Source of the DNA: Candidatus Woesearchaeota archaeon
GTDB lineage: Archaea; Nanobdellota; Nanobdellia; Woesearchaeales; JABGUJ01
Reading direction: 5' to 3'
DNA length: 64,000 bases
Assembly (NCBI GenBank): GCA_018646625.1
Contig: JABGUJ010000002.1
Coordinates: 350,843-414,842 of the forward strand
Within the stretch, counting starts at the first letter, position 1, and each line of letters opens with the position of its first letter. The notes under the pieces are model-generated. The model was not told where the DNA came from, did not search any database, and saw only the letters and a program-made list of their open reading frames with translations. Below, piece after piece: positions 24,497-45,249 of this stretch. The translations under genes were made by a program, and so were the position numbers.

Positions 24497-24828
24497 TGTG
24501 TTTAACTGTTGAACACCCATTAAAAATGTTTTCATTAAAAATGAGGTTTTAGTAAAACTTATAAACAATGATTACTTCTGTAATTGCCATGACAAAAACT
24601 ATTGTGAGTGGTTGTTTTCATTGTTTGCAAAGTATATTGCACTCCAAATAGTTTAAACACTAATTTCTTCGGACATAAATTTCATAGGTAGCTCCTGCTG
24701 CCTCCTATATCTAAAAACAAATATCTTCGATCTCAAAATCGCCAAAGAACTGTTCTTTGACCTTCTAGGGATTTAAAACAACGTAAAATGTACAATAGCG
24801 CTAGCTATGTCCTTTTATCAACAAAATG
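24497..24828. other. Intergenic region with promoter-like DNA
   Basis: This 332-bp gap has no convincing frame. It holds a TATA-like TTTATAA sequence near 24557 for the minus-strand lipoprotein gene, an inverted repeat CAAAGAA-CTG-TTCTTTG at 24743-24759, and TTTAAAA at about 24772 that may drive the tRNA genes. Confidence 0.4.
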
Positions 24829-24900
24829 GCGGCTATGGTGTATCGGTTTGCATTGAGGTCTGTGGAACCTCAGGTCCGGGTTCAACTCCCGGTAGCCGCT
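24829..24900 (+). tRNA. tRNA with GUG anticodon (His-like, U73)
   Basis: The cloverleaf folds fully: acceptor stem GCGGCTA/TAGCCGC, anticodon stem GAGGT/ACCTC, loop CTGTGGA giving anticodon GTG at 24862-24864, and T arm CCGGG-TTCAACT-CCCGG. There is a G before position 1, but the discriminator is T, not the C that pairs with G-1 in archaeal tRNA-His. So by anticodon it reads His codons, but the usual identity pair is missing. It may be a diverged second copy or charged unusually. It lies 6 bp before a canonical tRNA-His. Confidence 0.8.
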
Positions 24901-24906
24901 TTCAAT

Positions 24907-24978
24907 GTCCATTGTGGTGTATTGGTAGCATACCAGACTGTGGATCTGGAGGGCCGGGTTCAATTCTCGGCAATGGAC
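24907..24978 (+). tRNA. tRNA-His (GUG)
   Basis: A canonical archaeal tRNA-His: acceptor TCCATTG/CAATGGA, a genomically encoded G-1 at 24907 opposite C73 at 24978, anticodon stem CCAGA/TCTGG, loop CTGTGGA with anticodon GTG at 24940-24942, T arm CCGGG-TTCAATT-CTCGG. It is followed 25 bp later by a gene set that ends in hisS. Confidence 0.93.
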
Positions 24979-25003
24979 CTCAAATTATTGGAGGTATGGA
25001 AAA

Positions 25004-42167: not shown

Positions 42168-42845
42168 TTATCTCTTTAATCCAAAGAAACCTTTGAGCCT
42201 GGCTTTTCTAGCAATCTTTGAGAGCTCCTTTTCAATTTGTTCTTGATTTTCATATATTCCTTCCAAAACTTTGAACTTTTTATCATGATAAGTAGTTCTA
42301 GAAGAATTTGTTTTAAACTTTCTAACTTTATGTAGTAATTCATGATACATTATGTAATCTAGGTAGTTAAGTTCTTCATTTTCAAAAATTCTACTTACAC
42401 TAACAGTATCTGTTTTGAAATCATAACTTCCAAGTTTGGTTGTAGAGTGTGATCCCCATTCTAAGTTAGGCATTTCCACTCCGCCCAAAAAATAACGTTC
42501 ATTAACTCTGTCGAATGACTCTTTAAGATCAGGATCAATGTTATTTTTGGGAATTGCAATGTGTAAATTCTTTATGAAATTGTTGTAGAGATCTATATAA
42601 TAAGATTTTTTTCTTTTGTTCTTGAACAATTTTAGTAAAAGTTCTTGTATTAAACCAAGTTTAATCTCACCATCAACAGGAAACCATTTTCTGCATAAAT
42701 TAAACTCAATGTGATTTCCAGAAAGTCTGACGTTAGCCCCATAATCTTTGAATCTTCCAGAATAAATTAGATCTGTCTTGTATTTGAAATCCCTACCAGG
42801 ATAAAGCTTGTTGTAAGCTTCTTCAATTAGATTCATATCAGTCAT
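42168..42845 (-). CDS. SprT/YgjP-like zinc metallopeptidase
   Basis: A 225-residue protein with the zinc motif YHELLHK near residue 167 and a third His further on (TTYHDKKF), as in SprT- and WLM-type metalloproteases involved in repairing DNA-protein crosslinks. The N-terminal half holds alpha/beta structure with no known domain. Substrate unknown. Confidence 0.78.
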   Translation of the reverse strand: MTDMNLIEEAYNKLYPGRDFKYKTDLIYSGRFKDYGANVRLSGNHIEFNLCRKWFPVDGEIKLGLIQELLLKLFKNKRKKSYYIDLYNNFIKNLHIAIPKNNIDPDLKESFDRVNERYFLGGVEMPNLEWGSHSTTKLGSYDFKTDTVSVSRIFENEELNYLDYIMYHELLHKVRKFKTNSSRTTYHDKKFKVLEGIYENQEQIEKELSKIARKARLKGFFGLKR

Positions 42846-42918: not shown

Positions 42919-42926
42919 TTTATAAA
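42919..42926 (+). promoter_or_regulatory. TATA box of GGDEF protein gene
   Basis: TTTATAAA 31 bp before the ATG at 42950, suggesting a leaderless transcript. Confidence 0.5.
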
Positions 42927-42949: not shown

Positions 42950-44569
42950 ATGAGCGGCGATGATGGTTCTAATCACCATATAGAAGAAGTAATTAAACAA
43001 ATGGCCGAGTTGGCAGATTATCAGAAGCATTTCATAAAAGATCTTCCAGACTATTTTCGCAGAGTCAGAATACATCTTGACAGAGTAAAAAGAATTATTC
43101 TTCTTACTAAAAGATCTGCAACTAAAAATTATTGGATAGAAGGTGAAGAACTATTTCGTTTAATGAATAAAGTAATCGCAGAAATTGACGCAGATAAGGC
43201 ATTAATTAATCGAAAAGTCTACGATGAACAGGACGTAGAAGCCAAGTTAGAGAAAGATAAGGATCTTACTAAGGATGAAGAGAATTTAACTTTTGCACTT
43301 TATGAATCGCTTAATGACGCAAGATTGGAGAAGGGCCTTACAACTAGAAAAACATTAGAAAAAGTTAAAACGCGATTAAAATTTGCACACAGAAAAGAAC
43401 AAGTGGTTGATTCTATTGATGTTCATTTGGCAGAACTACTAAATCATTTTCGTGGAGTTGTCGGTTTGATAAGAGATAGAATAAGACTCGAGCTCGATAG
43501 TTTGAGGGCGATCGCATCATATAAAGATGCAGAGTTAAAGTTAAATTCACCAGAATGGAGAAAAATTGAGCAATACGCGATTAGACTAAGGAGAACTAAT
43601 AAGGAATTAACAGAATTCCATCTTGAACTTAAAGAGAATTTCTATAAACCATTTCAAAAATTTCTTGATGATAAGGTTACTGCAGAAGACAGAGTTGCAG
43701 AAATTATTTCTGAAAAAAACCAACATTGGTGGAATAAAGTATCAGTATTTAGAAATAAAGTCGATCTTCCAGAGGTATTAAGAGATTATAGAATTATGAC
43801 TTCACCATCAGAAGTTCTTGATTTCTTTCGTGCTTTACGTAAAAATCATAAGTTTTTGACAAAGAGAGCACGAGCATTCATAACACATGCCGAAAAGGGT
43901 GTGTTGCTTAAAGCTAAGAAAGATTCTTTTAGACTTGCCAGACAAGTTGTGTTGGCTCACAGAGACAGATTAACTGGAGCGATATCTCGTCCAGAGTTTG
44001 AAGACAGATTGTTTCCCAGCTTTGTTTTAAATTATACTAGAACAGGTAGAGAGTTTTCTTTACTTTTCTTAGATATTGATAACTTTAAAACATTTAATGA
44101 TCCGGACAAAGGAGGATATGGTCACTCAGTAGGTGATGATGTATTGAGAATGGTTGTTAAAAGTATGGGGGATGCTGTTAGGTTTGAAGCAGACAGAAAA
44201 ATTGATCCCGTTATTAGATATGGTGGAGAAGAGTTCTTGATATTACTTTCTACAGCAAATAAAAATGCGGCGATAACAGTTGCAAACAGAGTTAGAAAAA
44301 GAGTAATGGAAGATAGTAGAAAATTAAATGCAAGAAGATTGAAGAAAAATAAAGAGCCTTGGTATGACCCTTTAGATAAAGATGGTAAGAAACCGGTTAC
44401 AATTAGTATTGGAGTTGCTACTTTTCCAAGTAGTTGTAACATAAAAGGCGGAGTAGAAGTAATAGCTGGTGCAAATGTTACAAAATTAAGAGAACAAATG
44501 GTAAAAGCAGCAGATGGTGCGCTTTACAAAGCAAAAGAAAAGGGCCGAAACAGAGTAGAAGCCGCCTAA
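42950..44569 (+). CDS. GGDEF-domain protein (putative diguanylate cyclase)
   Basis: A 539-residue protein. Residues 1-330 are charged, helical and probably a sensor or coiled-coil region with no recognised domain. From about residue 335 a complete GGDEF domain follows: HRDRLTGAISRPEFEDRL opening, FLDIDNFKTFND metal site, the active-site loop GGEEF (about residue 425) and a TISIGVATFPS strand. An RxxD inhibitory site is not obvious. GGDEF proteins make c-di-GMP in bacteria and are rare in archaea. No EAL or PilZ gene is nearby; the protein has no membrane helix. Confidence 0.88.
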   Translation: MSGDDGSNHHIEEVIKQMAELADYQKHFIKDLPDYFRRVRIHLDRVKRIILLTKRSATKNYWIEGEELFRLMNKVIAEIDADKALINRKVYDEQDVEAKLEKDKDLTKDEENLTFALYESLNDARLEKGLTTRKTLEKVKTRLKFAHRKEQVVDSIDVHLAELLNHFRGVVGLIRDRIRLELDSLRAIASYKDAELKLNSPEWRKIEQYAIRLRRTNKELTEFHLELKENFYKPFQKFLDDKVTAEDRVAEIISEKNQHWWNKVSVFRNKVDLPEVLRDYRIMTSPSEVLDFFRALRKNHKFLTKRARAFITHAEKGVLLKAKKDSFRLARQVVLAHRDRLTGAISRPEFEDRLFPSFVLNYTRTGREFSLLFLDIDNFKTFNDPDKGGYGHSVGDDVLRMVVKSMGDAVRFEADRKIDPVIRYGGEEFLILLSTANKNAAITVANRVRKRVMEDSRKLNARRLKKNKEPWYDPLDKDGKKPVTISIGVATFPSSCNIKGGVEVIAGANVTKLREQMVKAADGALYKAKEKGRNRVEAA

Positions 44570-44661
44570 GTTACTAATTCTACTTAATTAGTTGTTATTT
44601 CTGTCAAGGAACAACTTTATAAATAAGTTTTGTATTGTAGTTCTAGGTATTGGGGGATATC

Positions 44662-45249
44662 ATGACCACAGGACTTGACAAAGTACTAGAGAGCTATGAT
44701 CTTAGACCAGGCGATAATGTAGATATTTCTTTGTCCGCCAACACTTTAACTCCAAGCGAAGAACTAAACAAGCGCGGAAGTACTTGGACTTTCAGATTAG
44801 AGTTGAGAGTTAATGATAAAGATAGAGGCAGGCCCATCGATTTAGCAGATGTGTTGAGAGCTCCAGACGAAAGCTTAGATTATGGCAAGAGTAGTGTACC
44901 ATTACTTGATGTTGTAGCTGCAATGAAATATCTTGGAATTGTAGGTGCACCAACTCACATACTAGAACCATTTATGGACATACCACCAATAGGTCTTGAA
45001 GATAAAATGTCTTCAGATAGTATACTGTATGTTTTTTCAGGTTTGGTAGAATATGCAAGGGCAATTGCAGAAAGAATCAAACCTGCAGAGGGAGATGCTG
45101 CATTGTTTAGAGGAAAAGTTCAGTTAACTCCAAGAATTCTTGATAGACTATACAGCCAAGTTGAAGATATTTATAAAGGTCCTAAGGATTTTGCAATGGA
45201 TGATCTTAGAAATCTAGAAGCCGCATCAGGAATGAGAAGATCTTCTTAA
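44662..45249 (+). CDS. Hypothetical protein
   Basis: A 195-residue cytoplasmic protein. ATG 44662 follows GGGGGA; a TTG at 44650 is possible. The TATA box TTTATAAAT at about 44617 lies upstream. Helical in the C-terminal half, no cysteines. Overlaps aRF1's end by four bases, convergently. Family not recognised. Confidence 0.65.
   Translation: MTTGLDKVLESYDLRPGDNVDISLSANTLTPSEELNKRGSTWTFRLELRVNDKDRGRPIDLADVLRAPDESLDYGKSSVPLLDVVAAMKYLGIVGAPTHILEPFMDIPPIGLEDKMSSDSILYVFSGLVEYARAIAERIKPAEGDAALFRGKVQLTPRILDRLYSQVEDIYKGPKDFAMDDLRNLEAASGMRRSS

Follow-up and report, generated by a model that had tools for sequence, protein, structure and literature searches.

The window analyzed here is a 64,000-nucleotide stretch of DNA from a Candidatus Woesearchaeota archaeon, spanning positions 350,843-414,842 of a 504 kb contig (JABGUJ010000002.1). 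The host genome belongs to the DPANN archaea (Nanobdellota, presumably order Woesearchaeales), and is 1.57 Mb in four contigs, 96.4% complete and 0.6% contaminated. The window contains the only GGDEF protein gene of this genome, followed by a conserved gene, here called the partner, that is absent from an earlier note on this DNA. The features are as follows, in window coordinates.

42919..42926, + strand: TATA-box-like TTTATAAA, located 31 nt ahead of the GGDEF gene's ATG (sequence)
42950..44569, + strand: GGDEF-domain protein, 539 aa, ATG start (open reading frame and domain search)
42950..43945, + strand: N-terminal helical domain (N-domain), residues 1-332 (profile searches and AlphaFold2 model)
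43955..44554, + strand: GGDEF catalytic domain, residues 336-535 (Pfam)
44195..44206, + strand: RKID, the product-inhibition I-site (RxxD), residues 416-419 (sequence and alignment)
44222..44236, + strand: GGEEF active-site motif, residues 425-429 (sequence and alignment)
44616..44623, + strand: second copy of the TATA-like TTTATAAA, ahead of the partner gene; GGGGG at 44652-44656 precedes the ATG of that gene (sequence and inference)
44662..45249, + strand: conserved partner gene, encoding 195 aa when read from its ATG at 44662, with TTG at 44650 as an alternative start (homology and adjacency)

Given the position of the first TATA-like box, the GGDEF gene mRNA is likely leaderless, and because the same box lies upstream of both genes a shared transcript is not required. 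Elsewhere in the window, a divergent neighbor at 42168-42845 encodes a 225-residue protein with a YHELLHK zinc-peptidase-like motif, possibly SprT-like, that has no match in Pfam, PADLOC or PHROGs, and paired tRNA-His predictions (GTG) with 6 bp between them are present at 24828-24979.

The 539-residue protein matches PF00990 with 95.6 bits against a cut-off of 23.8 (E=3.4e-27), covering all 161 profile positions, as well as TIGR00254 (112.2 bits, cut-off 37.4) and 47 solved GGDEF sequences. Alignment shows that D375 and D377 (DID), N383, D396 (VGD) and K529 are retained, and the I-site and active site follow in the order RKID, PVI and RYGGEEF (RxxD-xxx-R-Y-GGEEF), with RKID five residues ahead of GGEEF, the spacing found in PleD. 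D396 lines up with the corresponding Asp in DosC and GcbC. The cGAMP-making Hypr GGDEF proteins have Ser where GTP-specific enzymes carry Asp, and the presence of Asp at this GTP-selective position sets the window protein apart from that group. Catalytic, metal and I-site residues are intact both in the window protein and in nearly all of 18 aligned family members, whose overall identity is about 20-37%. The earlier note had reported conservation of the GGEEF motif and metal-binding residues and expected c-di-GMP or another dinucleotide to be made; the active site is indeed intact, and c-di-GMP synthesis is predicted from these residues.

The N-domain is all-helical in an AlphaFold2 model of the monomer, and its last helix (residues 305-336) leads straight into the GGDEF domain. 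The earlier note had described a long helical N-terminus unlike known sensors, and both points are borne out, the helices by the model and the dissimilarity by the lack of a match to any Pfam family; what it missed is that this is a recurrent domain. Iterated profile searches identify 18 GGDEF proteins sharing a homologous N-terminus, with no other convincing Pfam domain in the N-terminal part of any of them, and the N-domain profile has strong matches (E ~1e-9 and below) in 24 genomes of the order, representing 12 families. The domain is fused to GGDEF in all 24 of these, and the profile matches neither plasmids nor viral contigs. As judged by sequence comparison, the N-domain is a real and recurrent family, found within this order only fused to GGDEF and absent from Pfam. 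Foldseek aligns helix 305-336 plus the GGDEF domain to stalk-carrying cyclases such as GCN4-WspR, SiaD and DgcB.

Two other relationships of the N-domain were considered and rejected. The long N-termini of other GGDEF proteins in the order are PocR-GAF, and are unrelated by profile comparison; matches among PDB sequences are mostly to designed coiled coils and other helical proteins, and are an effect of composition only. The PocR-GAF-GGDEF arrangement, a bacterial-type sensor architecture, itself recurs in the order (L004, L002, L008, L009, L016, and L024).

In three other genomes (G163, G173, and G177), the gene immediately following the closest GGDEF relative, in the same orientation, encodes a homologue of the partner (29-36% identity). 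The partner thus lies next to and downstream of the GGDEF gene, co-directionally, in every one of the four members of the closest GGDEF subfamily, which come from two families and have different other neighbors. Each of the three genomes is an archaeal MAG; one is placed in Nanobdellota, and one comes from a marine biofilm assembly. When genome contigs are scanned, the partner turns up in these three only, and profile searching across 70 genomes recovers just these and the window, two further matches at E>0.05 being noise. Confinement to the closest GGDEF subfamily is as would be seen for a dedicated partner. The partner has no Pfam match up to E=1, and its predicted fold (model pLDDT 54, best Foldseek E=0.9) is too poor for use.

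More broadly, small co-directional genes (110-204 aa) lie no more than 170 bp downstream of 15 of 23 N-domain GGDEF genes, a count made by hand on genes with readable surroundings only and without a control count. These look alike by eye, but in profile comparison they do not rise above shuffled controls, and a common homology was rejected. Because no relationship between these genes and the partner is detectable, the partner family is limited to its four members.

In five relatives from four families of the order the GGDEF-plus-small-gene unit is immediately upstream of mre11 (L141:11290-16179, L134:2797-8706, L136:3776-9727, L096:3904-9205, and L140:2617-5942). The N-domain GGDEF gene and small, unannotated genes are located between herA and mre11, with the unit directly following herA, in four of these (G022, G347, G345, and G240) and directly upstream of mre11 in the fifth (G210), which hints at a coupling of N-domain GGDEF enzymes to DNA-end processing in relatives with the insertion. 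However, herA and mre11 are adjacent without a GGDEF insertion in the host genome (L179), as they are in G036 (L183), so the insertion belongs to some relatives and not to the window gene; a DNA-repair role for the window protein was rejected for want of any linkage.

Two other GGDEF neighborhoods recur in the order. In three genomes of family f4 (L089, L093, and L137) the GGDEF gene is near genes for proteins of about 315 and 714 residues, the larger of which starts MKKGQ(V/L)T(V/I)FIIIG and is probably a membrane or surface protein. In family f73 (L094:7964-8830 and L135:7099-7932) the GGDEF gene is preceded by a gene for a conserved protein of about 195 residues of no known family, and followed by one whose product, also conserved, is a membrane protein weakly matching DUF1189.

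The earlier note regarded c-di-GMP signalling as rare in archaea, but GGDEF proteins are not rare in the lineage described here: half of the order's genomes encode PF00990 (177 of 353, and 103 of the 180 of high quality). PilZ is found in one and EAL in eight of the 353 genomes, and MshEN in one of 26 genomes. The whole host genome contains no PilZ, EAL, or MshEN, extending the observation that EAL and PilZ are missing nearby. Searches of 14 known genomes as positive controls found PilZ in five and EAL in six, so the absence in the order is not a search failure. The c-di-GMP-I riboswitch had no match in 26 genomes, and the control genomes gave none either. No known c-di-GMP receptor was found in the host genome, a point that the earlier note had set against its own proposal.

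A genome-wide search for HD-GYP proteins, suggested in the same note alongside PilZ and EAL, did yield a candidate phosphodiesterase. HD_5 has two weak matches in the host genome, and one HD-GYP-like protein of 275 residues, encoded beside dnaG (L082:2206-3033) and not linked to the GGDEF gene, has the motifs HDFGK, His, HHHDNGGNGY, ADKLDA, and RPYRK. All of the signature His and Asp residues are present, although GYP reads GYA and the PF13487 score of 29.2 bits is barely above the cut-off of 27.2. Its nearest solved chains, V-cGAP3, PmGH, and PA4781, are all cyclic-dinucleotide phosphodiesterases, and it could degrade the GGDEF product. The other HD_5 match, L083:1912-3144, encodes a weakly GAF-like part and a degenerate-looking HD-GYP-like domain. 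Clear HD-GYP domains are present in several relatives (L072, L073, L074, L075, and L081), and HD_5 is more common in GGDEF-positive (19/45) than in GGDEF-negative genomes (6/57; Fisher p=0.0004) in non-random genome samples, with a p value that ignores relatedness.

The lack of PilZ, EAL, and MshEN in the host genome could reflect a GGDEF domain that is catalytically silent, acting as a regulatory module or scaffold that binds GTP or c-di-GMP, with the function carried out by the N-domain or the partner. Consistent with this, the window GGDEF domain has loop insertions near its active site that have no counterpart in aligned relatives, PDKG (4 aa) after FND and RFEAD (5 aa) before RKID, and one relative (L038, genome G021) has lost both GGEEF, which reads GGEEI, and the FK residue. 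However, retention of the catalytic, metal, and I-site residues among such divergent proteins would be unlikely without selection on catalysis, and we regard a silent domain as unlikely.

The missing c-di-GMP receptor set could also be accounted for by another product, such as 3'3'-cGAMP, c-di-AMP or a linear dinucleotide, or some signal addressed to a defense effector, and V-cGAP3, the nearest solved relative of the HD protein in this genome, is a cGAMP phosphodiesterase. Both the signature D396 and the guanine-binding N383 are nonetheless GTP-selective residues, and PADLOC gave no above-noise match to a signalling defense system, its matches being weak Cas3-HD and Cas6 noise that led us to reject a defense system here. 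A product other than c-di-GMP is thus quite improbable.

The GGDEF gene is surrounded in the window by archaeal genes, including those for eIF5A, a site-2-protease-like M50 peptidase, aRF1, prefoldin, and UPF0147, and its codon usage and GC3 are inside the range of the neighboring genes. The earlier note had named recent transfer with decay as a finding that would count against its proposal, and there is no sign of either. In the GGDEF tree, backbone support is weak and bacterial sequences are interleaved, and the domain is too short for the tree to support a bacterial origin. Although this interleaving and the warning by Galperin et al. (2018) about contaminated archaeal contigs (PMC5847659) leave some room for a recent bacterial acquisition or an assembly contaminant with no role in the archaeon, this explanation is largely refuted, and very improbable, given the archaeal flanks on a 504 kb contig, the native codon usage, and an N-domain spread over 12 families of the order but not in plasmids or viral contigs.

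On balance we favor the interpretation that the window encodes an archaeal cytosolic diguanylate cyclase, in which the coiled-coil-like N-domain and the partner control dimerization as SiaC does for SiaD. Paired GGDEF domains would condense two GTP molecules to c-di-GMP, an activity and product predicted from the sequence, with the RxxD site providing product feedback. The oligomeric state would be set by the N-domain through the coiled-coil-like helix leading into the GGDEF domain; because GGDEF domains must pair and there is no known sensor, the N-domain is likely the control of pairing and the partner the likely switch. By analogy with SiaC, to which it is unrelated in sequence, the partner expressed from the co-directional downstream gene may bind and switch the N-domain. 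The product would be removed by phosphodiesterases of the HD-GYP rather than the EAL type, and would presumably be read by receptors other than PilZ.

More tentatively, this DPANN order may run its own reduced circuit, with synthases of the GGDEF type, hydrolases of the HD-GYP type, and receptors or switch proteins from uncharacterized families, including the 44662-45249 product, and essentially no PilZ, EAL, or MshEN. Counting against the cyclase reading, assays of two archaea, H. volcanii and S. acidocaldarius, did not detect c-di-GMP (PMC8646023), though both are distant and nearly devoid of GGDEF.

As of 2018 archaea had a single known GGDEF domain, and further examples from uncultured members were suspected of being contamination (PMC5847659); a BLAST count in 2021 gave more than 300 archaeal GGDEF matches, many in Asgard and DPANN (PMC8646023), and one study reported a higher frequency of diguanylate cyclase genes in those ultra-small groundwater MAGs that were sediment-enriched (PMC9938205). 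The literature searched contains no description of the N-domain, the partner, or the lack of PilZ and EAL across the order. With GGDEF in half of one DPANN order, the host copy on a long archaeal contig, and almost no known receptors, the role of the signal in tiny, probably host-dependent cells becomes a pertinent question, and c-di-GMP signalling in archaea becomes testable. The partner may prove to be a cyclase regulator or c-di-GMP receptor of a new type, and offers a specific candidate for one.

Comparison with known systems places these components in context. The candidate phosphodiesterase shares HD, His, HH, NGY, and RPYRK with HD-GYP phosphodiesterases, and has cyclic-dinucleotide phosphodiesterases as its nearest solved chains, but differs in having GYA for GYP, a score barely above the Pfam cut-off, and a location alone beside dnaG. 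The PocR-GAF-GGDEF proteins of the same order (L004 and L024) are likewise archaeal, about 500 residues long, and have a C-terminal GGDEF domain, but have recognizable PocR and GAF sensors to which the N-terminus of the window protein is unrelated by profile comparison. In common with PleD, WspR, and DosC, the window protein has a full GGDEF domain with GGEEF, metal Asp residues, guanine-binding Asn and Asp, an RxxD I-site, and a helix running into the GGDEF domain; it differs in being archaeal, in its helical N-domain of about 330 residues of no known family, and in a genome without PilZ or EAL.

The closest parallel in mechanism is in Pseudomonas aeruginosa, where SiaC binds the SiaD stalk and converts inactive pentamers to active dimers (PMC8457831). 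SiaD and the window protein are both cytosolic GGDEF proteins with a helical N-terminal part and no recognized sensor domain, and each has a small protein encoded by a neighboring gene. The N-domain is far longer than that of SiaD, however, no SiaA or SiaB is seen beside the window gene, and the lack of a Pfam match shows that the partner is not of the SiaC/DUF1987 family. By analogy, SiaC-SiaD is a precedent not for membership but for the mechanism that we propose.
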